A DNA stretch of 64,000 bases from Natrialba swarupiae. Lineage in GTDB: Archaea; Halobacteriota; Halobacteria; Halobacteriales; Natrialbaceae. Under the pieces are notes generated by a model. It had not been told where the DNA came from. It was given only the letters and a program-made list of their open reading frames with translations, and ran no database searches. Position 1 is the first letter of the stretch; the number at the start of each line of letters is the position of its first letter. The stretch lies in NCBI RefSeq assembly GCF_008245225.1, contig NZ_VTAW01000014.1, positions 1-64,000 on the forward strand, read 5' to 3'. Below are positions 12,923 to 62,551 of this stretch, one piece after another. Both the position numbers and the translations under genes were made by a program.

Positions 12923-13043
12923 CGGTCTCGGTGTGGGAATCGGACAGGAAGCTGGTGAGCAATCGCTGCTGTAGGGTTCTGGGACAGGGGCCCGAGCCCG
13001 GGTCAACGATGGCTACCGGGCTCGTGACGTACCTCTGCTGTTC

Positions 13044-14096
13044 TCAGTGGCCGGCAGCCGGGTGGGTGTCGTCTTCGATATCGTCGTCATCGATCGGCTC
13101 GTACTCGCAGTCCTTGCCGACGGGTTCGAACCCGGGGACGTAGCTGAAGTGCTTGCCCGGTTCCCGTCGGAGCAACCACGGGAAGTCGCCGCGGTTTTCT
13201 CGGACACGGTACTGGAGATCCCACTCGTGGAGGTCTGCGGCGGGTTTGGCGACTTTTGGAGCGGGGAGTTCCCCTCGCTCGAGGTCTTCGAGTTCGAGGA
13301 CGCGGACCTCGAGCTGGCGGGCGAGTTCCTCGGCGCGAGTGGTCAGCTCGGTCGTATGGCAGAGGACAGGCATGGCTCGGCAGGCGAAGGCGACCGTACA
13401 GAGTCTGAAGATCGTCCCCGGCGTGATGGTGCCGCTCTGCCAGTCCTTGCACTGGGCGACGATCCAGTCGGTCGGTTCCTGCTGTTTCTCCTCGCGAAGG
13501 GCGACGACGTCGATCTCGAGGCTGAAGAGCGTCTGGCGGGTTTCGGCGCGGTAGCCCCAGCGCCGGAGCGCCCGCTGGAGCTGGTACTCGAGCCAGCGGC
13601 CATCACCGTGGCCCCGTCCGTCGACGTGGTCGTAGCCGGCGTCGGTTCTGATGTCGTCGAAGTCGGTCGTGACCTCGCTCTCGTCGTCGACGTCCGGCAG
13701 CAGATCTCGGACTGCCGTGATGCTCTCGAGGGCGGTTTCGAACTTGTCTTCGGGGGAGTCACTGTAGCGGTACTCGTCGGGGTGTTCGTTCCGCGCACAC
13801 TGCAGGAGACGACCGAGCCGGCGTTCAATCTGGGTGAGGGCGTCCTCGTAGTCGTCGAACTCGTCGGGTTCGCGCTGGTAGTTGGTTTCGGCACCTGGCT
13901 CTGGGCCGGGAAGGATTTCCCGGGCTTCTTCAAGCGGGCGTTTGGTCGTATGGAGCAGGCGGCGGACGGTGTGTCGCTCCTCTGCCGAGAGGTCGTGCTC
14001 GAAGGCGGTTGATTCGCGAAGCGATTCGACGGCTCTGATGAGCGGGATCAGCTGTTCGTAGTACTCGTTCGGGATAGGCGTCTCGTCAGTTGTCAT
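13044..14096 (-). CDS. Mrr-like restriction endonuclease domain protein
   Basis: A 350-residue protein. Its N-terminal 130 residues are acidic and helical without known motif. Residues about 165-260 form a Mrr-type PD-(D/E)XK nuclease: DGRWLEYQLQRALRRWGY opens the fold, LEIDVVAL supplies the metal-binding Asp, and DWIVAQCKDW supplies the QxK pair common in Mrr enzymes. The C-terminus contains DFPWLLRREPGKHFSYVPG. Mrr enzymes cleave modified DNA. It sits in the leftward cassette between the coiled-coil and unknown genes, so it may act on viral or plasmid DNA rather than as a lone type IV enzyme. Confidence 0.75.
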   Translation of the reverse strand: MTTDETPIPNEYYEQLIPLIRAVESLRESTAFEHDLSAEERHTVRRLLHTTKRPLEEAREILPGPEPGAETNYQREPDEFDDYEDALTQIERRLGRLLQCARNEHPDEYRYSDSPEDKFETALESITAVRDLLPDVDDESEVTTDFDDIRTDAGYDHVDGRGHGDGRWLEYQLQRALRRWGYRAETRQTLFSLEIDVVALREEKQQEPTDWIVAQCKDWQSGTITPGTIFRLCTVAFACRAMPVLCHTTELTTRAEELARQLEVRVLELEDLERGELPAPKVAKPAADLHEWDLQYRVRENRGDFPWLLRREPGKHFSYVPGFEPVGKDCEYEPIDDDDIEDDTHPAAGH

Positions 14097-14174
14097 GGAT
14101 CTGGCGGTGGGTGGTGGCGGTGTAGTCGATCGTCGATTCGGCTGTGGTCGGCGTCGTGACCGTAGACTGGCAGC

Positions 14175-14906
14175 TCATGGTGACTGTGAGTCCGAGTCCG
14201 GCTCCAAATTTGACTCGAGAGTGCCAATCGGGCTCGTGGTGAAGTGCTTCCGGGTAAGCGGTGTTTCAGCGAGGGTCGTCAGCGTGGGTTGGCCCTGCTG
14301 CTGGATGTGATGGTACAGGCCGTCTCTTGTGACTGCCTGCCAGTCATCGGCGTCTAACTCTCGATAGCGGAGTTCATCGTCGACGGCGACGACGACCCCC
14401 TGTTCGGTTGTGGCAGTCGCATCGAAGACGAGTGCCGGCGGGTCAGATCGGTGCCACTGTCCCCGGAGTTGTTCGAGGAGTGCCTTGAGCGCCGGAGGAT
14501 CGGTTGGGGTAGGGGCCTGGGCTTCAGTTGGGGCACGGATTGCGACGTCTTCGACGGTAGAGCGACCGCACGGTCGCCAGCCTGTCCCCTCCCACTCGAG
14601 TTTCCGATAGCTCCACTCCCCGTCTTCGCTCTTGGGTTCGAAGACGAGGCGGCGAGGCGGTGTCCCATCAGGATCCCACTGGAGTGTGATCGCGTCGGAC
14701 TCCCTCGTGGCAGAGGCTGCCTGCTGGTGTCGGAGCGCGAAAAGCACCGGGTTGAGCGCTGAGCGAGCGTTGTGCAGTTGCTGGAGTGCGTCCGCCTGGC
14801 GAGAGGTCGCAATGTCGGTGGTGGTCGACAGCTCCTCGATCAGCTGGTGGATGTCGGTGTCGATCTCCTCGAGGGCGGTGATGAACTCCTGCAGGTCGTC
14901 GCTCAT
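14175..14906 (-). CDS. Hypothetical protein of the leftward cassette
   Basis: A 243-residue acidic protein. The first 60 residues form an amphipathic helix pair (FITALEEIDTDIHQLIEELS and LQQLHNARSALNPVLFALRH), after which beta-rich segments include RRLVFEPKSEDGEWSYRKLE and a C-terminal half with LVFDATATTEQGVVVAVDDE. Its start codon overlaps the stop of the gene upstream by four bases (14903-14906), so both are cotranslated. The family is unknown. The high GC content and long antisense open frames of this region show strong coding bias. Confidence 0.6.
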   Translation of the reverse strand: MSDDLQEFITALEEIDTDIHQLIEELSTTTDIATSRQADALQQLHNARSALNPVLFALRHQQAASATRESDAITLQWDPDGTPPRRLVFEPKSEDGEWSYRKLEWEGTGWRPCGRSTVEDVAIRAPTEAQAPTPTDPPALKALLEQLRGQWHRSDPPALVFDATATTEQGVVVAVDDELRYRELDADDWQAVTRDGLYHHIQQQGQPTLTTLAETPLTRKHFTTSPIGTLESNLEPDSDSQSP

Positions 14907-15664
14907 TGCGTCTCACCCCGCTGTTTCAGGAGTTCGTCGACGGTGTGGGGTCGTTTGGTGAGTTCGGCTGGGCGGTCGGCGTCGGCGTTATCGAGGTGTA
15001 TCGTGAGCTCCGAAATCGGCTCCCGACCGGTTTCACGCCACTCACCCTTGCGGATTTCGTGGGTAATTCGCCAGGCTTCGCCGCCGGTATCTGGGACGAT
15101 CGTGATTCGACGCCGTCGGTTGTTGATCGTCGTATACTCGAGGACAAGCTCGAGATCGTGGTCGGAGTCGGGGGCAGTATCGTGGCCGCCGTCGGTCGCG
15201 AGTCGAGGGTCGTCGTCGGCGTCGACGAGCAGGAGCCCATCCCGGTCGTCGATGGTCGCGAGGTCGTAGACGCGCACCTCGTCGTTTGGATCGACCTCGA
15301 GTTCGTCGGTGACGTCGGGGCCAGCCGCGATACGAGCGCCATCGTATCGTGTACACAGCGTATACTCGGCGAGTGGATCGGTGGTCTCGGACGGCGGGAC
15401 GATCGCGACCCCGTCCTTGTGGGTGATGGCGTGGACAGTTGTGGAAGGCCAGTGCTGGCTGTCGATGGCTGCCGTCGAGATCGTGACTGTGTGGTCGGCG
15501 CTGACGGTGTAGGTCCCGCGGTAGCCGTCGCCCGTTTGGGTGACGTATTTCGAGGGCGAGGTGGTCTGGTCGAGGTTTGATTCGTGTGGGGGCGTCCGGC
15601 AGTCGTTGCAGAGGCGACGGTTGGTCATTTCCTTCCCGCAGCGGAGGCACGTGTCCCCGCTCAT
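14903..15664 (-). CDS. Zinc-ribbon protein of the leftward cassette
   Basis: A 253-residue protein with an N-terminal zinc ribbon (CLRCGKEMTNRRLCNDC, residues 5-21), followed by a beta-rich body rich in Asp and Thr (ITIVPDTGGEAWRITHEIRK). It overlaps the gene on either side by four bases (15661-15664 and 14903-14906), forming a tight operon. The zinc ribbon is a common device for nucleic-acid contact. No more specific identity can be given; it is likely a haloarchaeal mobile-element protein. Confidence 0.65.
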   Translation of the reverse strand: MSGDTCLRCGKEMTNRRLCNDCRTPPHESNLDQTTSPSKYVTQTGDGYRGTYTVSADHTVTISTAAIDSQHWPSTTVHAITHKDGVAIVPPSETTDPLAEYTLCTRYDGARIAAGPDVTDELEVDPNDEVRVYDLATIDDRDGLLLVDADDDPRLATDGGHDTAPDSDHDLELVLEYTTINNRRRRITIVPDTGGEAWRITHEIRKGEWRETGREPISELTIHLDNADADRPAELTKRPHTVDELLKQRGETQ

Positions 15665-15930
15665 TCGCGGTCACCTCCGGTCGGCTCGAGGAGGACTGCG
15701 TCCTCGCCGGCGACAATGATCTCGTCGTCGGTGGTTTCGGCGTGGCGTTTAGGTGTTTCTGCGGGGAACTGTATGGATGGGCGAGTCTGGGGTGTACAAC
15801 CTCTCGTCCGTTCGCCCGCGGTCTGACGCGGGTGCGTTTTCTTGGTGGTGTTCTCGTGGCCAGTCGATCGGCCAGCTGTACCATCGTCTAGTGGGCAATA
15901 TTCATTGCCCCGTGGGCTTTCATTTCGCAT
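15661..15930 (-). CDS. Small first gene of the leftward cassette
   Basis: An 89-residue protein starting MRNESPRGNEYCPLDDGTAG at 15930 and ending AVLLEPTGGDRE. It is polar, Thr/Arg-rich in its middle and acidic at the end. It overlaps the zinc-ribbon gene by four bases. The frame is open to 15981, but the ATG at 15930 gives a better N-terminus. A hairpin (15983-16001) and a 17-base palindrome (16048-16064) lie upstream. No family is recognised; the translation coupling supports its reality. Confidence 0.45.
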   Translation of the reverse strand: MRNESPRGNEYCPLDDGTAGRSTGHENTTKKTHPRQTAGERTRGCTPQTRPSIQFPAETPKRHAETTDDEIIVAGEDAVLLEPTGGDRE

Positions 15931-16426: not shown

Positions 16427-16762
16427 GATATCTACTCAGAACGCAGTTACCCGGATGGTGAACACAGAGTCTATATCTCGTACTATCTGGGAATGATCGT
16501 ATCTACGGTCAGGATGAAAGATATGGCCAGCATCCTCAGTATCGTTCTTGGCCGGCTATTTTGATTATACACACGATTGAGCCATACTCGTGTGCATATT
16601 CGGGAAACTGAATTTCGCGACGTGCGACCCCTGGATTAAATTCATCCAGAGCCTGTATCTCTGTAGACTATCGAGATTTCAGTCTCCCATGAGCTTTAGA
16701 TGAATGGAATCGGGAGTTAGTCAGTCATAAGGATTATTACTATCTTGTTACTGTTATCCTCT
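16427..16762. other. Promoter-side interval of the restriction-modification gene
   Basis: 336 bases with no open frame of note. GATTATACACAC near 16562-16573 and GGATTATTACTATC near 16732-16745 are AT-rich and the second stands about 25 bases before the start at 16763, so it is the better TATA candidate. Confidence 0.3.
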
Positions 16763-19700
16763 ATGTCTATTCGAGATCTTTCGTCCGACGATCATGAAGA
16801 ACTCGAGCAGGTAGTTGAAGATCTATACACCGTATTTCAAAGAGACTCTATCGAATTAGACGAAGTTGATGACTTAGTAGAACATCAATTGGTCTTCGAG
16901 TACTTGGATGATTTGAGGCAAGATCCTCCTGCACAGCCTGAATCAGCTCTCAAGGACAAACTGGTCAATAGTGCCTCGATCCTCGGTCGATCTCTGTTTG
17001 GCCGGATGAGTCCGGAGATTACTATTGATGCCGACCGAGGTATTGTTGACTACAAACTTGAAGCAGATGGAATGCCAATTTTACTAGAAATCAAACCGCC
17101 ATTCAAAGCCAACCGACGGGAAGGGTCCACTGAGGAAATTGATAAGGTCGATCTCGATTGGAAAGATCACGAGGAGCAGATAAAACGTTATAGGACGGAC
17201 AACGAATATCTTATTTTCACTGACCTGAATAAGTGGTATTTTTTCAGTAAACAGCGTAAGGGTGGTCCGATTACAGATGAGCCATATGAACTTGAGGAGG
17301 TATATGAAGGACTAGGTCAAGTTGGAAATTTCCGCGAATACCTTGAGCGAGTTCAGCATCAAGCAGAACGAGGTCAATTGGGCGAGGACTTCTTCGATAG
17401 TTTGGACTCCTGGACAAATGAACTCCAATCACTGGAATTCCAAGACTGGTGTAATGAACGTGAACAGACAGAAGGAGTGATTAAATTCATAAATAAATTC
17501 ATATTTATACAAACATTGGACGATCACTTTTTAATCGACTTCAATTGGATTGAGAAACGATGGAAGCAGAAGAAACGAGATTGGGAAAGTATCGGTAAGA
17601 ATCGAGTATTGGAAGAATTTCTCAACGAAGTTAACCAGTGGTTTTATGCGTATTATGATACAGAACTTTTCGAGGAAAATCTGTTAAACGATTACCTCGA
17701 GCAAAGTGATGAGAACATTGAAGAACTTTATCGACGGCTACCACGTGTCCTTGGCCTTGAAAAGTGGCAAAAAAGTGCAATTGGTTACAGGGGGATCACG
17801 AATTTCCCATACCGGCAAATAGACGAAGACATCTTTGGACGTGCCTATGAGCGGTATCTCGCAGAACGTCGTGAGGAGGAGGGTATCTACTACACCCGAA
17901 AGCACGTTACCCAATATATGGTTGAAGAAGTGGTTGGCAAGCATATTGATGAACATGTTGACGAGTTCCGATCTGCGATCGAAGAGGAGGACTTTGACCG
18001 AGCAAAAAATGCACTTAATGAATTTATTGATTTTAAGGTTGTGGACCCTTCGTGTGGTTCCGGCTCATTCCTGATCAAAGCGGTTGACGCCATATGGGAG
18101 TGCTACCAGGAGATTATCGAGATTCTTGATAATCAAGAGTACCTTCAGTTTGAAGGGACTTTAGAGATTACCGATGAACAACGGACGAACGCCGAAGCAA
18201 TAAACGAACTGTACCGTATTCTCAATTATGATAGCGAACGGGACCTGATTTCAAAGGTTCTACTTCGTCATATTTACGGCGTTGATAAAGATGCAGACGC
18301 ACTGTCCGTTGCAAAGGTGAATATCTGGTTGGAGAGTATTAAGATGCTCTCAGATGACTTCCGTTATGATCAGATTCCGGATGGGGGTGGCTATGTACTC
18401 CCCAATATGGAGATTAACCTCCAGCACGGCGATTCGCTGATTGGGTTACCGTTTGATAAAGCCAGTTACGAGTTGGTGAATGAGCACAATGATAAGCTCC
18501 AGGAATTGTCTGATCTGCGCGAACATTATATCGACGACCATATGCGTGAGAATGCCGCGACAGAATTAGTTAATCTGCAAAATGATCTAAGAAAAGACCT
18601 CGACCGTACGTTTGAAGACTTCACAGAGTCAAACTCTGATCTAGATTCTAACGTAGCTGATGAGACAATCCCCTTCCATTGGCCACTCGGGTTTTTTCAC
18701 GCCTACATCGATGACGATGGAACGCCTTCGGAATCCCCCGGATTCAATTGTGTAGTCGGAAACCCCCCCTATGTGAACGCGATCAACCGAGGACGATACT
18801 TTTCCGATCCCGAAGACGACTTCTGGAGGTGGGCATTCAACTCTGCTGATCGTGCCTTCGATCTATATTTACCCTTTATCGAACAGGGTCTGAATCTCGC
18901 AGTTGAGGGAGGAAGTGTCTCATTTATTGTACCGAATAAGCATTTGGCGATCCCCTATGCGGAGGCTTTCAGAGATTTCATCGTGGAGGAGGACAACTAT
19001 CTTCGAAAAATCACGGATGTATCCCAGCTCGATGTTTTTGAAGACCCAAGTGTATACCCAGTTATTCCTCATTACGAGAAAAATGCTCTTGGGTCTGAGG
19101 CGACTGTTACCCTCAACAAACCACCAAGTCAGGAACTGCTTGGGGATGAGGAGTATAACTTTATCCACGATCATGGTACGTTAGATAAGCTTGATGAGAA
19201 TATTTGGAGTTTCCTCTTGTTACGAGATACATCACTATTTTGGAACATTTTTGAAGGGTGTGAACAACTTCGATCTGAAGGGACTGTACAGGCGTCAAGC
19301 ACTACGAGCGAGTCAGAAGAGTTCACTATCGCTCTTAGTGAAGATGAACCAAACGAGAATAAAAAGAAGTTCATTAAGACTGGTGGAGTCGATCCTTTCG
19401 TCTCCACGTGGGAGTTTGAGGAGGTACGCCACCGTGGCCAGGATTACGAACAGCCAGTATTAGATACGAATCATGAGATTATTACAGATCTTCGACGGGA
19501 CCAGTACAACAGTCCCAAACTCGTCTTTGCGAAGGTATCAGACCAAATTGAGGCATTCCCAGATGTTGATGGGAATTATGCCTCAGTGGATACGAACTTC
19601 TTCTACAACAGTAATGAAGAGATAACATATTATGCTGGGCTTCTGAATAGTTATATCTCGAATTTCTTGTATACTGGTCTATTCGGCGCACTCCGTATGA

Positions 19701-20491
19701 GTGATGGGGACTTCCAGTTCCAAGCGCCCCAGCTGCAATTAATTCCGGTTCCTTCCCCAGAGACTGTCGAAGATGAGGACATCCGTACCGTCTTAGATAT
19801 TGTCGGTCGACTCATGGACCGAAAACATCATCGTGAGCGATTAACCACTATTTGGACAAAACAAGCCGAAAACCTCAGTGACACCAATCGATCGTTAGCA
19901 GAGATTCTTGAACAGGATAAAGAGTTTATCCAGCAGGGGAACTTCGATTTAGCATGGACAAGCGATGTGGGATTCTATCCTGACGAAGAACAGGATGCAC
20001 TCAGTGCCGAGTTCGATAAGTTTGTTGTTAAGGGAGGCGATGACAATAGAACACTCAAAATCTATGGTCGTGAAGACAGGACTGATGAGGAATTATATAC
20101 AATCGAGTTTAGAGATCGCAACCTGTGCGATCATGTCCTTCTATCCATGCGAATCAACTTGTTCGATACTCGAAAACACGTCGACACACTTGATGACATT
20201 TTGGAGAAGACCCAGGTCCCGATCATTCGCCGAGATAGCGCACAAACAACACCAAACATCTTAGATCAAGTAGAACGGCGGTTCCTTGACGCTGCCCAGT
20301 CGAACTACTCGAATGTCGATCCAGATCCAAATCTCTTGACTCTCGAAAACCAAATTGACGAATTAGAGATGAAACTCAATGTTATAGTCTTCAAGCTTTA
20401 CAACGTTGACAAAGATGAGGCAAGCAACGTTCTTGATGATTTAAACACTCCTATCAAAAAGAAAGATGAGTTAATAAATCAAGGGTGGTAA
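16763..20491 (+). CDS. Type IIG restriction-modification enzyme (Eco57I/TaqI-type)
   Basis: A 1242-residue protein combining cleavage, methylation and target recognition. An N-terminal PD-(D/E)XK region includes DYKLEADGMPILLEIKPPF (residues about 97-115, Asp then ExK). The methyltransferase part has motif I DPSCGSGSFLIKAVD near 428 and catalytic NPPY (VVGNPPYVNAIN) near 668, marking an N6-adenine type enzyme. The last 300 residues contain a TaqI-like target recognition region (APQLQLIPVP) and a helical tail. The start at 16763 (MSIRDLSS) is chosen over one six codons earlier. It is self-sufficient as restriction system; it has lower GC than the genes before it, suggesting transfer. It opens the defence-like island. 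Confidence 0.85.
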   Translation: MSIRDLSSDDHEELEQVVEDLYTVFQRDSIELDEVDDLVEHQLVFEYLDDLRQDPPAQPESALKDKLVNSASILGRSLFGRMSPEITIDADRGIVDYKLEADGMPILLEIKPPFKANRREGSTEEIDKVDLDWKDHEEQIKRYRTDNEYLIFTDLNKWYFFSKQRKGGPITDEPYELEEVYEGLGQVGNFREYLERVQHQAERGQLGEDFFDSLDSWTNELQSLEFQDWCNEREQTEGVIKFINKFIFIQTLDDHFLIDFNWIEKRWKQKKRDWESIGKNRVLEEFLNEVNQWFYAYYDTELFEENLLNDYLEQSDENIEELYRRLPRVLGLEKWQKSAIGYRGITNFPYRQIDEDIFGRAYERYLAERREEEGIYYTRKHVTQYMVEEVVGKHIDEHVDEFRSAIEEEDFDRAKNALNEFIDFKVVDPSCGSGSFLIKAVDAIWECYQEIIEILDNQEYLQFEGTLEITDEQRTNAEAINELYRILNYDSERDLISKVLLRHIYGVDKDADALSVAKVNIWLESIKMLSDDFRYDQIPDGGGYVLPNMEINLQHGDSLIGLPFDKASYELVNEHNDKLQELSDLREHYIDDHMRENAATELVNLQNDLRKDLDRTFEDFTESNSDLDSNVADETIPFHWPLGFFHAYIDDDGTPSESPGFNCVVGNPPYVNAINRGRYFSDPEDDFWRWAFNSADRAFDLYLPFIEQGLNLAVEGGSVSFIVPNKHLAIPYAEAFRDFIVEEDNYLRKITDVSQLDVFEDPSVYPVIPHYEKNALGSEATVTLNKPPSQELLGDEEYNFIHDHGTLDKLDENIWSFLLLRDTSLFWNIFEGCEQLRSEGTVQASSTTSESEEFTIALSEDEPNENKKKFIKTGGVDPFVSTWEFEEVRHRGQDYEQPVLDTNHEIITDLRRDQYNSPKLVFAKVSDQIEAFPDVDGNYASVDTNFFYNSNEEITYYAGLLNSYISNFLYTGLFGALRMSDGDFQFQAPQLQLIPVPSPETVEDEDIRTVLDIVGRLMDRKHHRERLTTIWTKQAENLSDTNRSLAEILEQDKEFIQQGNFDLAWTSDVGFYPDEEQDALSAEFDKFVVKGGDDNRTLKIYGREDRTDEELYTIEFRDRNLCDHVLLSMRINLFDTRKHVDTLDDILEKTQVPIIRRDSAQTTPNILDQVERRFLDAAQSNYSNVDPDPNLLTLENQIDELEMKLNVIVFKLYNVDKDEASNVLDDLNTPIKKKDELINQGW

Positions 20492-25508: not shown

Positions 25509-26846
25509 GTGAAAATGACTGGGATCGTGATTTTTCCTGCTAGCCGCCAAGATGCCTATGATGACTACAAGCGCTCACTCAAGCAGGGACACCCTCTCGA
25601 GGACCTCGAATCGCACCTATCCGATGAGGAACTCGAGGACCTCAGGGCGACGTCGGAAGACGGACGAGCACATCTCTGGGGGAGCTCTGTTGCAGGGAAG
25701 TGGCAAAACGTCGAGCCGGGTGACATCGGATTTGTGTACCGCAAGGGAAAATTCGTCTCTCGTGGCCGTGTCCTCCGCCTGAGTGAGAACCACGAATTAG
25801 CTGCGCACCTCTGGAAGGATGGCGTCGATCATGATCGGTGGGATGCAGACAAGCCGTGGAAGTACCTCACGTTCCTCACCGATATCGAGGAGATCGAGGT
25901 CGACATCGAGGAGTTCAACGAACTCATCGGCTACGACGAAACCTATCGTCCGCAGGGATTCACGAGGGTCTCCGACAACCGACTCGATCGACTCAAAGAC
26001 GAGTATGAGTCTGTTGAGACGGCACTGGCCGAACTCACAGAAGCCGGTGAGAAAGTCCACCATGTCGATGACACGGACGATGAACAGACGACCGATCTTG
26101 CCAGCCGCCTCGAGACGGCCAGTACCAATGGGGACGATCCCGATGAATTCGAAAAACTCGTCGCGAAGGCGTTCACTCGACTGGGGTGTACGACCAACTG
26201 GATCGAAGGCGGCGGTGACACCGATGTCGAGATCGAAGCGCCACGTCATATCGTCGTCGAGGCTAAAACTCGAGGCAGTGGAAAGCTCAATTCGCTCGAA
26301 GCTACCAACATCGATAAACACCGACGTCAGCGTGGGGCTGACCACGCGATCGTCGTCGCACCCGGGTTCACCCCGAAGGTAATCGAGAATGCGACGACAA
26401 ACGAGTTGACGACAATCGCCGTCGACGACCTGATCGAGCTACTGGAGCGCAGAGAGCAGTATGCGATCCCACCTGAGCAGACCCTCGAGCTACTTACCCG
26501 GCCAGGATCCTTCCAGGACGACCGGCTCGATCTTCTCGATGAGAACATCCAGGATCGGGTCAAGGCCGGAGAGACACTTTTGGCGGTCATTCGAGCTCTC
26601 GAACGGGCTGACGGTGTGGTTGAGACCGCAGCCGATGTCCGGTGGATCGTCGTGGGGATGCAAGACTCGGATGACGTTCCCAGTGAACGGGATGTCAAGA
26701 ATGCGCTCCAACTCCTAGGGCATCCAAGCATCGGCGTCGTCGAACAGACCGAGGAGGGATATCGGATTGTAACGAGTTATGAGAATGCAGTCCAACTCGT
26801 CCGCTCGATCGGTGAGGTCGTACAACCTCCAGAAGAAGAAGTATAG
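25509..26846 (+). CDS. Probable PUA/EVE-like plus Mrr-type restriction protein
   Basis: A 445-residue two-part protein. The N-terminal 170 residues (KMTGIVIFPAS, HLWGSSVAGKWQNVEPGDIG, FVYRKGKFVSRGRVLRLSEN, and a proline/tryptophan strand set ending DKPWKYLTFLTDI) have the outline of a PUA/EVE-like modified-base reader. Residues 215-340 form a Mrr-like nuclease: DPDEFEKLVAKAFTRLGCTT, GGGDTDVEIEAP with the catalytic Asp near 235, and HIVVEAKTRGSGK with the ExK. The start may be GTG 25509 or ATG 25515. Such a reader-nuclease combination is typical of type IV restriction. It stands alone between two transcription units; the assignment of the first part is from pattern only. Confidence 0.7.
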   Translation: MKMTGIVIFPASRQDAYDDYKRSLKQGHPLEDLESHLSDEELEDLRATSEDGRAHLWGSSVAGKWQNVEPGDIGFVYRKGKFVSRGRVLRLSENHELAAHLWKDGVDHDRWDADKPWKYLTFLTDIEEIEVDIEEFNELIGYDETYRPQGFTRVSDNRLDRLKDEYESVETALAELTEAGEKVHHVDDTDDEQTTDLASRLETASTNGDDPDEFEKLVAKAFTRLGCTTNWIEGGGDTDVEIEAPRHIVVEAKTRGSGKLNSLEATNIDKHRRQRGADHAIVVAPGFTPKVIENATTNELTTIAVDDLIELLERREQYAIPPEQTLELLTRPGSFQDDRLDLLDENIQDRVKAGETLLAVIRALERADGVVETAADVRWIVVGMQDSDDVPSERDVKNALQLLGHPSIGVVEQTEEGYRIVTSYENAVQLVRSIGEVVQPPEEEV

Positions 26847-27318: not shown

Positions 27319-30300
27319 CTACTCTCTGGTTGGTGTTGAGTTACTGTATAACGAAACGAGAACGGAGTCGAGATTATCAATAGGAAGTGTAGAATTAAAT
27401 TGCGAGAGGTTGCCCTCCCAGATGGGTGACGTATCACTACTAGCATGGCCAGTATACTCCGAGATCCCTTTCCAAAGCGTTGCTTCATCGTACACATCGG
27501 GATCGGAGGGGATGTGTTCAATAACAGACTGAGCGACGACGACAACCAATTTTTCACGCGCTCGAGACATCGCGACGTTCGCCCGATTCAGTGAGAGCAA
27601 AAATTTGTCTTCGACGTTGATGTAGTCGGGATCAGAAACGGTAGCTGACAGGATAATCACGTCCCGTTCGTCACCCTGGTACCGTTCAACGGTATCTGCA
27701 GTGAACAAGTCGTCTCCATCGGCATTGGACGCTTCCGATTCCGAAGGAGTAACAGCAGTCTCAACAGCCCCTCGCTGGGCGTTATGCGGGGCAACGACTC
27801 CTGTAGATTTCCCATTCGGGACAGCCTCGAGGATGCTATCGATGATCGTGATTTCCGCAGGGTTGACCTGCTGTGATTGATCGTCATCGTAGACGATGAG
27901 CGTAATTCCGGGGTCACCAGCGATTGCTAACCGTGCTGGTTCTGCTGCCGTCTGAACGGGTGTGATCGGGTCACGATCAGCAACGGATTGGTAGTCGATG
28001 TTGTCGAGTTCATAGACGTGTGCTTGGAGTAGGTCTGTGATTTCGTCGGGACAGCGCCGGCCATCGGAAAGTCGAGTAATTCCGATCCCAGTGTCAGTTC
28101 GGTCGACGTCGACGTCGACGGTTTGTTTGAGGTCGCCACCAGCCACGTTGTCGTCGCCCGCGAGGAATCGAAGGTAATCGAGCGCCGAGACGTACGCCCC
28201 GGTCACGTGGACCGTCTCTCGAGTTTCATTTTCCCAGTCAGCTTGCTGGACTGGCGGCATTTGTCGGTGGTCCCCGGCGACGAGGACTTGCCCTCCTGCT
28301 TTGAGGTTCGTTCCCGATAAGAGGAACCGGGGGACAGTAAGCATCGACGCTTCGTCGATGGCTAGAACGTCCCATAGGTCGAGCGAAGCGATTTTGTCGG
28401 CGTCGGTCGTGTCCAAGAGCTTCTTGGCGAGTCCCCACGATCGTGTTGGAGTCGCGAAGACGATTGTCTGGCCGGCTTGAGAACCACCGGTCATAGACTC
28501 TGTCTCGGCGGCTCCAAAGTTTGTGAGGCTCGTCTGGCCAGCCGATCCGGCACGGAGACCAAGCCGATTTGCGAGTGTATTGAGTTTATCTTTATCCTCT
28601 GGGTCAGAGTAGTTGAGGTACGTCACTCCTGGTGGCTGCTCGTCAACTGGTGGTTCGTCGCTCGAGAGTCGGACGAGTTCGATATCGTCGTCGGACGTTA
28701 CAGTCGAGCGATACTCGTCGATCACTTCCGCTGTTGCCTCGAGGACCTCGTCGATCGACTTGTTCGACGGACCGACAACTAATGTAGTCAGTGGAGTACC
28801 GCCGTGGGAAGCAGCGATTGCTCGCGTTGCGATCGCTGGCCCCTCCGCTCCACCGGTTTTCCCAGTCCCCGGTGGCCCCTGGAGCAACTGGAACTGATTA
28901 GTTGTCCCCTCGACGAACACAGCCTGCTCATTACTCGGGAGTGTCTCAGGGCCATATTCTACTTCCAACCATTCGAAAGCGGATTCCATATCCGGCTCTG
29001 CAGGGAGAGTTGTCGTCTCCGGCGCTGGATCAGTTTCAAACCGGATCGCTTCAATGACGTCGTGAAGGTTGTTCTTATCTGCGTGTTCGAGGGCTTTCAG
29101 GCAGCGATCGACTGTTACGCCACCTGCTCGCGGATCGAGAAGGAAGCATTGTCCACGTTTAACGAGAACCTTGCTGTCTGAGGCCTCGGCTTCGGTTTCG
29201 TCGGTCGTCCAGTCGTGGTTGAACACCTCGAACGAGCTGCCCGAATAGAAGTTCTTGAACTCAAGTTCCACTTGATCGTTCTCGAGATCTAGGTCGATGA
29301 TCGTTGCCTGCGGGGACTTTCGGATGTCCCGTGGCCTTGTCCGAGGTTGTTTCGACTTTCGTGGGAAGTAGGGAGTAGCGACCACCCAATCCCCGCCTGT
29401 GGTGCCACGTTCTCCTTTCTTCCGGCAGCGCTGCTTAACTTCCTCCCCGTCATCGTCAAATAGGCCCTGATACTCGTACATTAGTTTGCCCGTGACGTGG
29501 AGCAGTTCTGGGTCCTCATCGTCAACCTCTGCCTCTGCGACGATGATCGGGATGGTTCGGCCAGAGAGGATACGTTCTTCTGGTGGTTGGTGCAGAAGAC
29601 CGTCTTGATCATCAGCTGCGGCTTCTTGCTCGAGTAACAGGTAATCGATACAGCCTTTGGCGAGCGGGAGGGAGTCTTCTACGTCTTCCTTTGGATCAGC
29701 GGTAGCAGGTTTAGCCACTGTTTCCTTCGGAGCGTTGGGGCGCGATTGCTCGGTTTTGTGATCTTGCGTGCTAAATTCGAGAACTGGACCATCTGGAGAG
29801 AGGAATTCTGATGGAGAGACTGTAAACGGCTGCTTTTCCACGTAGTAGCTTTTCTTGTCGATACCGCGTTCGACATGCTCGAGAGCGTCAGCAAGATGTC
29901 TACAGAGGGCTTCGATATCTCTGGGTTCGATCTCGCGTTCTTTCAGATTTGCATCGTGATACTGGATTTCGTCGAGGATGGACTCGGCAAGGGCTTCGTT
30001 CCCATCGAAACTGTCTGCCCAGTGGTCGTCGATTCGACCGACAGCTGCCCACAGGAATCCAAGCGGGATTGCAGACCCGGATCGGAGTCGCGTTGAGTAC
30101 GTCCCGTCGTGTTCGCTCGAACTATACGTCTCGTCAGGGTGGATTTCGATACCGGATTGCGTCTCGGTGTACGGAACGTCCTTGTAGAAAAACCGACGTC
30201 CGAATACCTTTTTTAGATTTACGTCGGTCTGGCCATCGGCCCAATCATCTGGTCCAGTAGGCTCTGGTGTGTACGTCCAGTCTGTCCGGGGTTTCGAGTA

Positions 30301-32007
30301 GTCGTATCCGGATGAAAGTTGTTCGAGGGTATGGAGTAAGGACGATGAGGGCGTTTTCATCCCGTAGTGGTTGGTCACGACCGGCTCGACGACAGAGACC
30401 ATCGACTGGTCGATGCTGTCTCTGAGATTCAACAGGGACCGGAAGCGCTGTGCCTCCTCGAGATCGGAGTGACGCTCGAGCAGTTCGACAAGTGCCTCGT
30501 ACTCGGAACTCGAGTACACGTAGAAATGGACAGGTGGAGTGTCTGTCGAATGGATACCGTCTTCAACGCTTTCGACCGACTTCCGAAGGGTGGTAAGTAC
30601 GTTCTTCAGAAGCTTCTTTTCTACCCTGGCTGAGTCTTCTGAATCTTCGGGTGCATCGTCGGCTACGTGCCCGAATCGTTCGGATTCTACCTCTGAACTG
30701 GTTGCTGTAACACGGCCACCGAGTGCCATCAGCCGGTCTCGAAGGTGGTCTTGTTGGACGGTCAGGTAACATCGGATGAGTGTTCCTGACGGGTAGGCGA
30801 TCGACGAATCATCGTAGGGGTCGTCATCGGGGAGGGGCGTATACCCCGTCGAGACGAGTTCTTGAGCGTATTTCGAGGTGTCGACAGCGGTTGAGTTACA
30901 GTTGAGTTCCCCACCGAGGATCTGGGCTCGCTCAACGAGTTTGGATAGGCCCCCGGTAAGATTCGTCTCGAGCAGAAGCGTCTTCCAGAGATGCTTGTCC
31001 TTCGGCTTGACACTGTGATGGTGGGTCATATCCCGTTTATCTGGCGGATAGGCGAGGTCTGCAACATCCCCGACTGTTTCGATTCCGTGTGAGCGGAAGA
31101 CTTGCTGTTGGGCAGGTGGGATTCCCAGCAATCGGATATCCTGTTCTTCGACTGCATCTGTATAGCATGCCTCGCTGTAGGGGCAGCTAATACACCTAGA
31201 ATCGAGAGTGTGATCGACATCCTCGAAATCGGTGTAGTAAGTCCGGTGAAGACTCCCTCCACGTTGGCATAATCTCCTTACATCTGTTTCGCGGGATGAT
31301 CGAGGGAAGGATGGGAGAGCGACTGGCGTAATCTCCTCGAGAGACGTGTTTCTGGTGATAACACCGGTAGAAATTGATTCGATCTCTGATGCTAGATCGG
31401 CAAGTTCGCTTGAAAGAAGCTGATCGAAAAGGATCGAATAGGTAGCTGTTTGAATCTGATGTGCCGTTTTCTCTTCTTTTGCTGCTTTAATATCGTACAG
31501 CCCAACGTGACAGCCGGTTTGTGTTGGCCAGAGGAGGGTAATGTCTGCGTCTCCGACGACTGTCCAGACACCAATGACCCCTTTGAGGCGAAGTTGAGAG
31601 AACGCTATTGGATCCCCATAACTGGGTTTTGGGGTGGCTGAGACTGCTTCTTGGATGTTTTCCTCAAGTGACTCGACGATAGCATCACGTGACCGGTCTT
31701 TGCAGTCGATCAGTGGTGTTGCCAGATATGGCTCGAGCTGATCTTCGACAAGAGTCTCGAAATCTTCGCCTGCTTTTTGCAACAGCGGGTTCAGTGGCTC
31801 AAATGCCTCCCGATACTCTTCGCCGTCATGTGTGGTGGAAGCGTTCTGATCGGTCGACCTAAACGCGAAATAGCGGTTACAACCCTGAAAGGAAATATAC
31901 TCGTTGAGAGCTGATGGGTCGAGACTGTCTGATGGAGTTGGGAGCTTGTCTTGGGGGCACGTTTGTGGATCTATGCCCGCCGAGAGTGTATCAGAGCCTG
32001 TTGACAT
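27319..32007 (-). CDS. Dna2-like fusion: Cas4/RecB-type nuclease with SF1B helicase
   Basis: A 1562-residue protein. The N-terminal 290 residues form a Cas4/RecB-family nuclease with an iron-sulfur cluster. Cys43 (in QGCNRYFAF) with Cys272, Cys275 and Cys281 (CISCPYSEAC) give the C...CxxCx5C set; the catalytic Asp is near 155 (GDADITLLW) and DIK near 172, followed by HQIQTATYSILF. Then comes a helix-hairpin-helix-like segment (LLGIPPAQQQVFRSHGIETV). The helicase has Walker A GPPGTGKT near 1040, DEAS near 1215, GDHRQMPP near 1247, VERYQGDERDVIILS near 1442 and AMSRAREKLVVVV near 1480: the UPF1/Dna2 type. TATA TTATATAC near 32030 makes it leaderless. It would resect or process DNA ends; a defence role is an inference from context. 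Confidence 0.8.
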   Translation of the reverse strand: MSTGSDTLSAGIDPQTCPQDKLPTPSDSLDPSALNEYISFQGCNRYFAFRSTDQNASTTHDGEEYREAFEPLNPLLQKAGEDFETLVEDQLEPYLATPLIDCKDRSRDAIVESLEENIQEAVSATPKPSYGDPIAFSQLRLKGVIGVWTVVGDADITLLWPTQTGCHVGLYDIKAAKEEKTAHQIQTATYSILFDQLLSSELADLASEIESISTGVITRNTSLEEITPVALPSFPRSSRETDVRRLCQRGGSLHRTYYTDFEDVDHTLDSRCISCPYSEACYTDAVEEQDIRLLGIPPAQQQVFRSHGIETVGDVADLAYPPDKRDMTHHHSVKPKDKHLWKTLLLETNLTGGLSKLVERAQILGGELNCNSTAVDTSKYAQELVSTGYTPLPDDDPYDDSSIAYPSGTLIRCYLTVQQDHLRDRLMALGGRVTATSSEVESERFGHVADDAPEDSEDSARVEKKLLKNVLTTLRKSVESVEDGIHSTDTPPVHFYVYSSSEYEALVELLERHSDLEEAQRFRSLLNLRDSIDQSMVSVVEPVVTNHYGMKTPSSSLLHTLEQLSSGYDYSKPRTDWTYTPEPTGPDDWADGQTDVNLKKVFGRRFFYKDVPYTETQSGIEIHPDETYSSSEHDGTYSTRLRSGSAIPLGFLWAAVGRIDDHWADSFDGNEALAESILDEIQYHDANLKEREIEPRDIEALCRHLADALEHVERGIDKKSYYVEKQPFTVSPSEFLSPDGPVLEFSTQDHKTEQSRPNAPKETVAKPATADPKEDVEDSLPLAKGCIDYLLLEQEAAADDQDGLLHQPPEERILSGRTIPIIVAEAEVDDEDPELLHVTGKLMYEYQGLFDDDGEEVKQRCRKKGERGTTGGDWVVATPYFPRKSKQPRTRPRDIRKSPQATIIDLDLENDQVELEFKNFYSGSSFEVFNHDWTTDETEAEASDSKVLVKRGQCFLLDPRAGGVTVDRCLKALEHADKNNLHDVIEAIRFETDPAPETTTLPAEPDMESAFEWLEVEYGPETLPSNEQAVFVEGTTNQFQLLQGPPGTGKTGGAEGPAIATRAIAASHGGTPLTTLVVGPSNKSIDEVLEATAEVIDEYRSTVTSDDDIELVRLSSDEPPVDEQPPGVTYLNYSDPEDKDKLNTLANRLGLRAGSAGQTSLTNFGAAETESMTGGSQAGQTIVFATPTRSWGLAKKLLDTTDADKIASLDLWDVLAIDEASMLTVPRFLLSGTNLKAGGQVLVAGDHRQMPPVQQADWENETRETVHVTGAYVSALDYLRFLAGDDNVAGGDLKQTVDVDVDRTDTGIGITRLSDGRRCPDEITDLLQAHVYELDNIDYQSVADRDPITPVQTAAEPARLAIAGDPGITLIVYDDDQSQQVNPAEITIIDSILEAVPNGKSTGVVAPHNAQRGAVETAVTPSESEASNADGDDLFTADTVERYQGDERDVIILSATVSDPDYINVEDKFLLSLNRANVAMSRAREKLVVVVAQSVIEHIPSDPDVYDEATLWKGISEYTGHASSDTSPIWEGNLSQFNSTLPIDNLDSVLVSLYSNSTPTRE

Positions 32008-32053: not shown

Positions 32054-32640
32054 ATGATTCAACCTTACACCGACCTCCGGCCACTGCCTTCATCGGTATT
32101 CCAAAGAAATCGTTGCCGAAGCCAAGCGCCACGGCTGTACGTACATCGCCTTCGAGGACCTGGAGCAGATTCGAGCACGTATCAGCGACGACAAGAAGTT
32201 CCAGCAGTGGGCGTTCCGCGAACTGTAAGAACAGACCGAATGCAAGGCGGAACTGGCTGGCAGCGTGGTCGAAACAGTCGAAGCATCCTACACTAGCCAA
32301 CAATGCTCGAAGTGTGGCGTTATGCTCGAATAAAACAGAGATGGACAACAGTTCCAGTGTTTTGACTGCTCGTACTCGGCAAACGCCGACTACAACGCGG
32401 TCGTCAGAGTAGTCTGACGGGCAGCAAACGCGAAGCGCTTGCGACGGCGAAAAACGTTGCCTGGAAACTCGCATTCAAACTCCAGCGAGGGCAAAAGTCC
32501 CCCGCTGGGGGGCGTTCTGTCAGTTCGCCCTGAAGTCGGGGACGAAGATCGTAAACGCTACTGGAGTGATGTCCGACGCCTACGTGTCGGAAAAATGAGA
32601 GTCCACCGACAAGCCAACGCCTTAGCCGTTGGTAGCTGAC
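32054..32640 (+). pseudogene. Decayed TnpB (IS200/IS605-type) gene
   Basis: Several frames preserve pieces of TnpB in order: TYIAFEDLEQIRARISDDKK (RuvC-II with Glu), a stop in place of a codon in FREL-stop, EASYTSQQCSKCGVMLE (first zinc knuckle), then FDCSYSANADYNAVVRVV (RuvC-III Asp), and, after another frame change, AKNVAWKLAFKLQRGQKSP. The hairpin CCAACG...CGTTGG at 32614-32632 marks the right end. The N-terminal half is missing and the gene carries multiple stops, so it cannot work. Confidence 0.75.
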
Positions 32641-32646
32641 ATCGCA

Positions 32647-35289
32647 CTAACTAGAGGGTGCCTCTGCGAACTTCCTGTAGTTGTTCCGAATTGTGACCGC
32701 AGTGAGTCCCGCTGCATCGGCAATCTGGTCCTGCGTTACCGAATGATCAGGTGACTCCGTCATCGCCACATAGAACGCAGCCGCGACTTCCGACATTGGA
32801 TTCGATCCGCCGTCTAGCGGGGTTTCGTCGAGTAGTTCACGAACCTGTTCACGGAGTTTGGCGTCATCTTCCCGACCTAACTGGCGAGCCAGATAGGGGA
32901 CGTACTCCGGTGGATCGACAACGAGATCAGATGCATCAAGGGTATCCGAAACAGTCGTTTCCTGAATCAGTCGGTGGAATTTCTGTCGAATGGATTTCGG
33001 GCGCTCGTCGAGCACCTCGGCGATGTCCGCGAGCGGTCGCGGGGTTCCAGTTTCGATCGAAGCGATTCGGATTGCTGCACCGAGCGAACACTCATGAGCT
33101 GCACCAGGGACGACCCCCGCCGCATGCCCCTTTGCGTACAACTCGGCTGCACGGTAGGTTACAGTCGGAGTTAGATGCAGCGACGTCGCAGCTTCGACGA
33201 GAATCGGTGTCAACTCCAGGGCTAACTGTTCCTGATAGTCCCGATCCCGCGGATGGACGTACGTTCTCACAGTGTCGCCGTAGTTGATTCGCTTCGCTAT
33301 CTCAGACTCGTCGATTTCGTCCGTCCCGTCCGCCGGCTCCGACTTAACCGCTGGCTCGTCGTGGGGTTCGAATTTGGGTATATGTGCACCCCGGTCACGG
33401 AGTGCCTCGACAGCCTCCCAGAATGCTTCTCCTTGGGGATACTCCTGCTCGTCCAAAATGATGCCCTCCTCCAGCGCGACGACCTGAAGTGCATTGAGAG
33501 CGATCATACCCTTTCGATAGATCCAGATGTCATCAAGGACACCGAGCCGTGTGCCGGACTCGCTGTGAACCCATGACGGATCATACGAGTAGGTCCCATC
33601 TCCGTGTTCCCGAGTCTGCGTACTTCGCATCTTGATGTCGGACGGGCGGACCTGATTGATTGCGTCGAACACGTCTTGAATATCGTTCGTCGTCTCCAGT
33701 TCGCGGAGTTCTTCACGCCCGCGCTCAGGCCCTCCAGTCGCTCGATCGGGCGTCTCACTACTGATCGACGCGAACTCATCTTCCAGTCGTGTCAGCAACG
33801 ACTCGGCGTTCGTCAACTGCGTCGGGGACCCCTCGAGATGATCACCGGTCATCGCAACGAATCGGTTTCGATCGTAAACCTCCAGTGTCTGGTCACCGGT
33901 TTCGTCGAGAGATCCGGTAAGTGACTTAACGTCTTCTGAAAGACGACCGCTGGCAAAGACGTGCACACCGGTCCCCGAGGTTGAGATTGCAGCGTACGAA
34001 TCGGCTTCGTCGACCAGATCTCGTGCAGCGCGACTTAGATCACCGTTGACCACGACATCATCAAGATCCAGGAACACGACATCGTCGTCGCGGGTAATCG
34101 CGTACGCCAGATGGAGGTCGTGGGGAAGCTTCGACTGCCAACGTACCGCCTCTTGGAAGGACGTCCAGTTCATCGGATTCATCGCGTCAACGTACCGGAG
34201 TGCGTCCCCGGTCTCCCACGGCGCACGCGGGATCTTCCGACCGTCGTCCGTCTGCTTCCAGAGGAGCCACTGATCCCGATCAACCATCTCCTGTGGAAAT
34301 CGCTTGCTCTCGAGGAGATTCCCCTTCCCGCCGTCAGGTAGATCACTGTCATCGCTCGTCTCGTCGGCTCTAGTGATCCTGCCAGATTCACCGTCTTGAT
34401 CACCTACGATACCCGCTGTTTCATCACCGTTATCAGTCTCCGTTGAGCCAGAAGCCACAGAAGCTCGGTTAGTGGTGGGTTGACCAGATCCACCTCGGGT
34501 CGAATCCGCCGCTGGGTCGGAAGAACTCTCCCGCGTTTCCGGCAGCCTATCAAGTTTCTCTTGAGCAGTCTCCTTGAGACTCTGCGCGAGTTCATCACCG
34601 ATATACCGAGCTTCGGTCAGTTCATCGACGGAAGCCTGAGCTACGTCACCGATTCGGTCGAAACCAGCCTGCAACAGGTAGTGGCGGTACCGTATTGCGT
34701 ACTCGTCGAGTTGGACCACGGATCTATCGACATCCGCACGGAAATGGAGTTCGAGGGTTTTTTCTGCCGATTCAGGTGGAACCAGCGCTGCAGCAAGGTC
34801 AGCATAAGCATCCGCTACCTCGGTCCGGTCTGCGTCCACGGACTCGGCGATTTCAGAGATGAAAGTGTCCTCCCACCCACATTGTTCTCGAGCCGTAGCC
34901 TGAATACACCGCGCCACCGTCTCACTGATTTTCGGCGTTTGACGGAGCTGACAGGCGGAAGCCGCCGCGACGTCAGCAGCGCCGTCATATCCAGCCGTTC
35001 GCAGCGCTTCGGCTCGAGTCTCTCCGATTCCTGGTATGTCGTCCAGCAAGGTGTCCGACGTCTGTGAATCAGTATCTCTTGGTCTGGTACCGTTCGAATC
35101 CGGCTCCTGGGGAGTCGAATTCGGGCTCTCTTTGTGGCTTTTGCGAAAGTGCCACGAGTTCCGATATCCTAGGGTTTCCCAGGTGTGATCCGTGTCTTCC
35201 TTACCAGAGATATGGTGAATGACTTGACTTATCGTCCCATCAAACGAACAGCCAGACGCTGGACACAACAGATCGTTGTCGCCCCCCAT
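32647..35289 (-). CDS. Primase-polymerase fused to TFIIB-type cyclin repeats
   Basis: An 880-residue protein. Residues 1-45 form a C2HH-type zinc finger (LLCPASGCSF to HHISGKEDTDH); residues 80-130 and 195-245 are helix-hairpin-helix-like (LLDDIPGIGETRAEALRTAG and LLQAGFDRIGDVAQASVDEL). A linker rich in Ser/Asp follows. Residues 330-490 match a bifunctional primase/polymerase core: VVFLDLDDVVVNG (catalytic Asps near 406) and AISTSGTGVHVFASG. Residues about 690-880 contain two TFB-like cyclin repeats (TYRAAELYAKGHAAGV with LGAAIRIASIETGTPRPLAD, then MSEVAAAFYVAMTESPDH with LTAVTIRNNYRKFAE). It probably primes replication of a plasmid or virus and may contact promoter DNA through the cyclin part. 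Confidence 0.75.
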   Translation of the reverse strand: MGGDNDLLCPASGCSFDGTISQVIHHISGKEDTDHTWETLGYRNSWHFRKSHKESPNSTPQEPDSNGTRPRDTDSQTSDTLLDDIPGIGETRAEALRTAGYDGAADVAAASACQLRQTPKISETVARCIQATAREQCGWEDTFISEIAESVDADRTEVADAYADLAAALVPPESAEKTLELHFRADVDRSVVQLDEYAIRYRHYLLQAGFDRIGDVAQASVDELTEARYIGDELAQSLKETAQEKLDRLPETRESSSDPAADSTRGGSGQPTTNRASVASGSTETDNGDETAGIVGDQDGESGRITRADETSDDSDLPDGGKGNLLESKRFPQEMVDRDQWLLWKQTDDGRKIPRAPWETGDALRYVDAMNPMNWTSFQEAVRWQSKLPHDLHLAYAITRDDDVVFLDLDDVVVNGDLSRAARDLVDEADSYAAISTSGTGVHVFASGRLSEDVKSLTGSLDETGDQTLEVYDRNRFVAMTGDHLEGSPTQLTNAESLLTRLEDEFASISSETPDRATGGPERGREELRELETTNDIQDVFDAINQVRPSDIKMRSTQTREHGDGTYSYDPSWVHSESGTRLGVLDDIWIYRKGMIALNALQVVALEEGIILDEQEYPQGEAFWEAVEALRDRGAHIPKFEPHDEPAVKSEPADGTDEIDESEIAKRINYGDTVRTYVHPRDRDYQEQLALELTPILVEAATSLHLTPTVTYRAAELYAKGHAAGVVPGAAHECSLGAAIRIASIETGTPRPLADIAEVLDERPKSIRQKFHRLIQETTVSDTLDASDLVVDPPEYVPYLARQLGREDDAKLREQVRELLDETPLDGGSNPMSEVAAAFYVAMTESPDHSVTQDQIADAAGLTAVTIRNNYRKFAEAPSS

Positions 35290-54816: not shown

Positions 54817-54948
54817 CGATAGATTACGAAGACGGTATTTACCCCACTCCGGGAATGCATGGTTGTAGTCGTTAGATTGCCTGTTTTCGATCGGTTACAA
54901 CTCCACAAGGGTCCACATTTTTATACCCGGAGTTCGAGAGGATTCATA

Positions 54949-56424
54949 ATGGGACGAGAGGGACGTAGAGCACAATCGAATCATCCTGAGGATGAGATGG
55001 ATGATGAATCATCGACGGATCAGGATGCAGACTCCCCTGATACGTCACAAATGACATTCGGAAAGGGCTCGGATCCCACTGATTCGTCTCAAGAAACTAC
55101 GAACGACGACAGTGGCGGCATCTCAATTCGGGACCGACTACAAACCGAGTCGTCCGGTGGAGTCTTCGCGAATAAAGACCTTGTCCGGTCAGATACCATC
55201 ATCGACGAGGATCGTATCGTTGGTCGTGATGACCAACTGGGCCGTGTCGTCGACAACCTAAAACCGGTTCTTCAGGATGAAGGGATCCCTGATATGCTCC
55301 TGAGCGGACCATCTGGGACGGGCAAGTCGTTGATCATTCATGCAGTCTGCAAACAGATCGTTGAACTGTGTGAATCACAAGACAAGACCTTCGGCGTTCT
55401 TTCTATTAACTGCGAAGGACCGAAGACTGCAGATCGGGCTGTCTATCGGTTAGTTAAAGCTGCTGCCGACGATCTCGGTGTTGAACCTGGAGTTCCCCAA
55501 ACCGGCGTTTCAACGGATCAGAAACTCGAGCGACTCTACGAACTAATGCGAGAGCATTACGAGGGAGTGATCTTCATTCTTGATGAGATTGACATGCTTG
55601 AAGGACCGTATCAGGAAGCAGAATACAATTCTCTCATCTACCAACTTTCACGAGCGCGTAAACTCGCTGACTTTGATGGTCCTATCTCGCTTACAGCCAT
55701 CACAAACTATGCTGATTTCATGAAGGAACTCAATAGCCGTGCTCAGAGCTCTTACAATCCTGACGATATTTTCTTTGATGATTATGATGCGAACCAGCTA
55801 CGCAGCATTCTCAAAATGCGCAGGGATGCTTTCGAGCCAGACGCACTAGCGGGTGATGTCATTCCTCTTGTTGCTGCATTGGGGTCTCACACGCACGGAG
55901 ATGCTCGAAAAGCGATCGATCTCCTTCGATGGGCTGGTGAGTTGGCTGAGCGACGTGGCGGTAATACAGTTACAGAGAATGACGTTCGGGAAGCTCAAGA
56001 AAAATATACTGAAAATCGCAGACTCCGACATATTAGCGGAATTTCAACTCAAAAGAAACTCGCTATCTACGCTGTCGCGGCTACCGGTCATTACACAAAA
56101 GAACGGCTTGAGTGGATTCCCGCTGGACCTGCTTTCAAGACATACCAGTTTATAGCCGATACAATGGATATGGATCAGTACAGTCGTGAGACCTTCGTCA
56201 ACCATGTCACTGAGCAGAGTACATACGGTGTACTAGAATTTGATCGACGAGGAAAGGGTCGAGGAAGAGGCGTTCATATGTATTTTTCACTCTCCGAGGA
56301 TCCAGAAACGATTATGGAAACAATCCGTGAGGATTCACGATTCGAAGATCTAGCTCACGAAAATGCGACCATTGGTGCTGTAGTCTCCGAGCGATTGACC
56401 CGATTCCGAAACCAAAATTACTGA
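54949..56424 (+). CDS. orc: Orc1/Cdc6 replication initiator
   Basis: A 491-residue AAA+ initiator. An acidic, disordered N-terminal 60 residues (DEMDDESSTDQDADSPDT) precede the core: Walker A GPSGTGKSLIIH near 118, Walker B VIFILDEIDML near 207, sensor 1 TAITNYADF, and sensor 2 in the HGDARKAIDLLRWAGELAER helix. The last 100 residues form the winged helix (GISTQKKLAIYAVAAT, YQFIADTMDMDQYSRE, GRGRGVHMYFSL) that contacts origin boxes. ATG 54949 follows the TATA-like TTTATACC near 54920, so it is leaderless. The flanking ORB boxes mark it as the local initiator. Confidence 0.9.
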   Translation: MGREGRRAQSNHPEDEMDDESSTDQDADSPDTSQMTFGKGSDPTDSSQETTNDDSGGISIRDRLQTESSGGVFANKDLVRSDTIIDEDRIVGRDDQLGRVVDNLKPVLQDEGIPDMLLSGPSGTGKSLIIHAVCKQIVELCESQDKTFGVLSINCEGPKTADRAVYRLVKAAADDLGVEPGVPQTGVSTDQKLERLYELMREHYEGVIFILDEIDMLEGPYQEAEYNSLIYQLSRARKLADFDGPISLTAITNYADFMKELNSRAQSSYNPDDIFFDDYDANQLRSILKMRRDAFEPDALAGDVIPLVAALGSHTHGDARKAIDLLRWAGELAERRGGNTVTENDVREAQEKYTENRRLRHISGISTQKKLAIYAVAATGHYTKERLEWIPAGPAFKTYQFIADTMDMDQYSRETFVNHVTEQSTYGVLEFDRRGKGRGRGVHMYFSLSEDPETIMETIREDSRFEDLAHENATIGAVVSERLTRFRNQNY

Positions 56425-62123: not shown

Positions 62124-62551
62124 GAAACGAACGAAACGAATGGAACGAAGAGAATGAGCTAAACGAGGGTGATGAAATGAATTCTCCAAACGAACCGGTT
62201 TGTCCATGATTGGTCCGTGGTGGAAACGAACAAAACGAACACAACGAAGGTAGTGATTGAAACGAAAGGGTGTAGTTCAACGAGCGGAACGAACAGTTGG
62301 TTTTATTATCGTAGTAATCCACTCAGCGAGTGAAACAATCTCACCGAACGCACCGAACTAAACGAACAAAACGAACGTAACGAAGGTAGTGATTGAAACG
62401 AAAGAATACAGTTCAACGATCGGAACGAACAGTTGGTTTTATCATCGTAGTAATCCTCTCGGCGAGTGAAACAACTTCACCGAACGCACCGAACTAAACG
62501 AATTAAATGAACGAAACGAACAAAACGAACACAACGAGAGAAACGAGGGCA
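62124..62551. repeat. Iteron-rich partition (centromere-like) region
   Basis: AACGAA-type units occur in blocks at about 62124-62160, 62224-62268, 62360-62404 and 62496-62551, spaced by helical-scale intervals (for example GAACGAAACGAA and CAAAACGAAC). A 136-base unit is tandemly repeated: 62231-62366 and 62367-62502, differing at a handful of bases. The repeats run on into the start of the ParA frame and again into the partner gene (63430-63535), where (AACGAA)n encodes Asn-Glu/Thr-rich stretches. This fits an iterated binding site for the small partner protein. Confidence 0.7.

Follow-up and report, generated by a model that had tools for sequence, protein, structure and literature searches.

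Primases usually locate their start sites via helicases or dedicated origin-binding domains. In the core of TFIIB (human numbering is used for TFIIB and TFB positions), V283 and R286 read the upstream BRE, and G153 and R154 read the downstream BRE (BREd). R169 and K188 contact TBP; the R169E exchange is reported to prevent association of TFIIB with TBP and TATA DNA, and R169E/K188E to weaken TBP binding more than R169E does (PMC6004067). AEP PrimPol proteins are defined by the motifs hhhDhD (I), sxH (II) and hE (III), and proteins have been described in which primase and PriCT are joined to an HTH (ColE2 Rep, RepE/RepS) or to lambda O (PMC5862659). Like these, the protein analyzed here combines an AEP core with a C-terminal DNA-recognition module and has no helicase in the same chain; unlike them, its recognition module is a TFB core and its PrimPol is NrS-1-like. 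As far as the open-access literature searched shows, primase and TFB core are each known, while their union and the conservation of a TFB core without its TBP contacts are new; no earlier report of a primase-TFB fusion was found in this literature.

The fusion gene is located in the window, i.e. the whole stretch of 64,000 nucleotides of Natrialba swarupiae DNA that was analyzed, on a contig of 115,855 bases. Its open reading frame codes for 880 amino acids, is intact and without interruption, and is organized as follows:

32647–35289, minus strand: fusion gene, encoding finger, HHH, HHH, PrimPol, conserved tail and TFB core
35179–35265, minus strand: C2H2-like finger, residues 9–37, with C9, C14, H25/H26 and H35
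34888–35049, minus strand: HHH_5, residues 81–134, Pfam E 3.8e-14
34561–34674, minus strand: HHH_2, residues 206–243, Pfam E 2.7e-6
33715–34314, minus strand: PrimPol core, residues 326–525, with NrS-1 and PHROG primase matches
34060–34068, minus strand: catalytic DxD, residues 408–410, corresponding to D78/D80 of NrS-1 and invariant in the alignment
33340–33714, minus strand: conserved primase-region tail, residues 526–650, 76% identical to the second fusion (L001)
32650–33219, minus strand: TFB core with two cyclin repeats, residues 691–880
32677–32697, minus strand: BRE-reading recognition helix VTIRNNY, residues 865–871 (human 283–289)

All the parts that the initial annotation had placed in this one protein, a zinc finger, two HHH segments, a PrimPol with FLDLDD and two TFB-type repeats, are present. 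The finger was assigned by inspection since Pfam gave no match; its ligand residues also occur in the homolog from the archaeon SHR40 described below, and it is not the zinc ribbon of TFB. A RecQ-like helicase (L007:1–2022) carries an N-terminal double HHH segment as in the fusion protein, with 35% identity, which we attribute to a shared DNA-binding module only, rejecting closer kinship.

Residues 339–489 of the PrimPol core match the NrS-1 primase in the PDB (phmmer E ~1e-14); by profile the core is matched with E 3e-26, and it also matches PHROG primases (E 2.5e-28). Alignment to the primase-polymerase of phage NrS-1 (PDB 6A9W, 7RR3) recovers all three PrimPol motifs, the relevant segments of the fusion protein being FLDLDD (D408, D410), STSGTGVH (S436, S438, H443), LEVY (E470) and R476. 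NrS-1 residues D72, D78, D80, S108, S110, G111, G113, H115, E139 and R145 are all matched, whereas P109 is replaced by Thr and Y146 by Phe; in the SHR40 homolog the position of R145 is held by His. Judged from these motifs, the primase joined to the TFB core is a PrimPol proper of the NrS-1-like type with its catalytic motifs intact. Where the helicase stands in NrS-1, the fusion protein instead has the TFB core, and it additionally possesses the N-terminal finger and the HHH segments. Family-profile searches over residues 526–880 matched no helicase family, and the helicase of this locus is a separate gene. Between the PrimPol and TFB cores lies a conserved segment of ~110 amino acids (about residues 540–650), a tail common to the haloarchaeal PrimPol clade that occupies the place of the PriCT/helix-bundle domain and found no match in a Pfam search; the structure model of the region comprising PrimPol and tail is of low confidence (pLDDT 40).

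The C-terminal part is a TFB core by both sequence and predicted structure. Pfam places TFIIB repeats on two stretches (E 9e-11), the NCBIfam TFIIB profile matches residues 698–876 (E 8e-20) starting at profile position 132 of 312, and the sequence finds 1AIS_B/1D3U_B in the PDB with E 1.7e-13. The AlphaFold model of residues 681–880 (pLDDT 85.3) shows the cyclin fold that the initial annotation had proposed; its best PDB match in Foldseek is 1AIS_B, the TFB core of Pyrococcus woesei (E 1.8e-8, TM 0.79), with other TFIIBs and 1D3U_B also among the best matches. The two cyclin repeats and the recognition helix in repeat 2 are common to the fusion protein and archaeal TFB/TFIIB cores (PDB 1AIS, 1D3U), whereas the zinc ribbon and reader of TFB are absent, the core being preceded by the primase region instead, and the TBP and BREd contacts are lost.

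This loss became apparent when the cores of both fusions were aligned with those of 30 other TFBs, a set that included eight TFBs of the same genome, TFBs of plasmids and viruses, and that of P. woesei. Repeat 2 of both fusions retains T270-Q271, and the recognition helix retains the V283, T284, I285, R286, N287 and Y289 positions. In repeat 1, which has lost most positions that other TFBs conserve, neither fusion retains R143, R154, S155, Y165, R169, R193 or R196. The R169 position is Ile in both (Arg in 25 of the 30 other TFBs), the R154 position is Ala in both (Arg in 28/30), the R193 position is Gln in one and Lys in the other (Arg in 26/30), and the TBP-contacting K188 position is Pro and Lys, respectively. 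By these residues, the core has kept one of its surfaces for reading DNA but not the surface for TBP. Since R154 and R169 are lost, a canonical TBP-dependent promoter complex is unlikely, as is recruitment of RNA polymerase by the usual route since the zinc ribbon is absent. Thus, of the proposal that a TFB part which touches DNA and TBP is joined to the primase, the genuine core and the BRE helix (V283/R286) stand, whereas action together with TBP is not supported, its contact R169 and the BREd contact R154 being replaced.

The only other full fusion is encoded by Halobacteriaceae archaeon SHR40, a member of another family of the order (L001:7995–10631, on the same contig as G290:C20). It is 55% identical over the full length, and this second full-length member in another genome rules out chance or mis-assembly as the source of the fusion. 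Identity between the two amounts to 67% in the PrimPol, 76% in the tail and 64% and 53% in the TFB repeats, versus 12–14% in the linkers. Differences at the three codon positions are 0.32/0.13/0.69 and 0.35/0.23/0.57 in the TFB repeats and 0.69/0.64/0.62 in the linker, so that third positions dominate in the repeats but not in the linker. Together, these identities and codon differences indicate that purifying selection is acting on the domains, including the TFB core, and not on the linkers. In a phylogenetic tree the fused TFBs group together; the branch leading to this clade measures 3.85 changes per site and its tips are short, which points to strong divergence from other TFBs followed by constraint.

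The fusion is rare, with two cases among 392 sampled genomes of the order. No further one was found in 146 genomes of the SHR40 family and 345 of the phylum (overlapping samples), nor in PLSDB plasmids or GenBank phages, searches that very divergent cases could escape. Searching IMG/VR with the complete protein and with the PrimPol profile yielded no viral homologs, and the TFB open reading frames of the 15 viral TFB loci that were fetched, with 306–355 amino acids, are too short to hold the fusion.

The nearest PrimPols, with about 38–50% identity, are either linked to a helicase, free-standing or joined to a T4SS coupling protein. Haloarchaeal plasmid PrimPol-helicases (e.g. L002, L023 and L025) are about 42–50% identical to the fusion protein in PrimPol and conserved tail and then continue into a helicase domain, whereas the window protein continues into the TFB core. 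Two of the nearest relatives, plasmid PrimPol-helicases, lie on plasmids of 8.9 kb and 14.6 kb, where they may serve as replication protein. In another haloarchaeon, a conjugation coupling protein of the TrwB/TraG type ends in a fused PrimPol domain (L067:9758–12748), and on megaplasmids more distantly related haloarchaeal PrimPols that stand alone are encoded immediately downstream of genes for conjugal transfer or TraM recognition (L127:3296–9248, L128:4635–9236), which suggests that the latter are conjugation-associated primases. On plasmids of several haloarchaeal genera, a PrimPol gene, a full TFB gene directly after it and a second PrimPol gene form a cluster (L024:3971–8929, L064:8477–13240, L137:3157–8127). 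Since these clusters share 94–97% DNA identity and represent one plasmid lineage, the adjacency is weak as independent evidence. Recent capture of such a neighboring plasmid TFB is ruled out, as in the tree a very long branch separates the fused TFB from those of L024 and L064.

Downstream of the fusion gene, a second gene on the same strand is separated from it by a transposon remnant:

27319–32007, minus strand: nuclease-helicase, 1562 aa, with a Cas4/RecB/TM0106-type nuclease region and an IGHMBP2-like SF1 helicase
32054–32640, plus strand: decayed TnpB (IS605 OrfB) remnant, detected in a tblastn search that used the TnpB encoded in the window as query (E 4.8e-8), with in-frame stops

Relatives of the nuclease-helicase are rare (4/60 other genomes), and a homolog lies ~2.4 kb from the SHR40 fusion gene. 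The window also encodes Fic (7595–8815), a type IIG restriction enzyme (16745–20491), Mrr (25509–26846) and GmrSD (59571–62012), a stretch rich in defence genes, as well as Orc1/Cdc6 (54859–56424) and ParA (62507–63370). With Orc1/Cdc6, ParA, restriction genes and GmrSD, the contig has the appearance of accessory, perhaps plasmid, DNA and looks like a replicon of its own; since it has its own Orc1/Cdc6 and ParA, the fusion protein need not be its main initiator. Positions 12050–15884 have a high G+C content (0.63), a strong AT skew and long overlapping open reading frames on both strands, some with coiled-coil. In SHR40, two divergent TFB genes stand beside a gene for a 1185-aa tubulin/FtsZ-like protein (L061:6101–12498). 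Neither iterons nor another origin signature were found near either fusion gene, the upstream regions of the two genes share no convincing motif, and in an empty-site comparison the window flanks were not syntenic in three congeners.

Taken together, we tentatively favor, at somewhat less than even confidence, a mobile-element primase whose TBP-independent TFB core provides recognition of a DNA site, a task that falls to the C-terminal domain in ColE2 Rep-like and primase-lambda O proteins. We favor it since proteins built alike but with other recognition domains have been described (PMC5862659). The PrimPol motifs, the TFB fold, the retained recognition helix along with the lost TBP and BREd contacts, the conservation of the domains versus the variable linkers, and the plasmid- and conjugation-linked relatives lend it support. 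Against it stand the lack of iterons or an origin signature near either gene, the contig's own Orc1/Cdc6 and ParA, the His at the NrS-1 R145 position in SHR40, the PrimPol-region model with its pLDDT of 40, and the location of both loci among defence-type genes. According to this model, the protein would be a PrimPol of haloarchaeal mobile DNA in which the TFB core fills the C-terminal place held by a helicase in the nearest relatives. The BRE-reading helix-turn-helix of the second cyclin repeat would probably dock the enzyme, without the help of TBP, on duplex DNA that is purine-rich and BRE-like, and the finger and HHH segments would hold DNA beside the docked TFB core. The PrimPol core would then make primers on single-stranded DNA close by, which a separate helicase, for instance the adjacent nuclease-helicase, would have opened. 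What we infer for this protein is DNA binding and its target, primer synthesis, which helicase it works with, and that it helps to copy or establish a mobile element.

The main alternative, a serious one although we regard it as rather unlikely, is that the primase-TFB protein and the nuclease-helicase act together against invading DNA: promoter-like DNA would be marked by the TFB core and then copied or tagged by the PrimPol. Both fusion genes have the rare nuclease-helicase no more than 2.5 kb away, the window flank carries the type IIG restriction-modification enzyme, Mrr and GmrSD, the SHR40 contig encodes Druantia/DISARM/Mokosh-like helicases, and a Thermus PrimPol has been linked to defence against environmental DNA (PMC7693054). 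However, the fusion protein matches no PADLOC model, relatives of the nuclease-helicase at other loci lack a neighboring PrimPol or TFB, the two fusion loci differ in gene order, and accessory DNA collects defence genes anyway. A further serious, though improbable, alternative is that the protein serves in conjugation by priming the complementary strand in the recipient, its TFB core recognizing a transfer-origin or early promoter site: one relative is indeed fused to a TrwB/TraG coupling protein and stand-alone relatives directly follow conjugal transfer genes, but no conjugation genes were recognized in the annotated parts of the window and the SHR40 fusion gene is adjoined only by a HerA-like fragment. 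TBP-dependent assembly at TATA/BRE promoters that brings the primase there is very improbable, since, despite the retained TFB fold and BRE helix, R169 is Ile and R154 is Ala in both members, human TFIIB R169E prevents TBP-TATA association (PMC6004067) and the zinc ribbon is absent.

Replication may start at promoter-like sites, as the initial annotation suggested, and it is conceivable, if rather unlikely, that the core of a basal transcription factor has been converted into a module that targets a primase independently of TBP, with BRE-like sites being where DNA synthesis is primed. If true, TFB would have acquired a new use, the guidance of a primase by the core of a general transcription factor, and in Archaea the recognition of promoters and the priming of replication would be directly linked at the molecular level. 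The old idea of a common ancestry of promoter and origin recognition would become testable in one protein, and the fusion provides a naturally occurring TFB core that lacks the TBP contacts. Parts of a transcription factor may have been reused to steer the copying of DNA.
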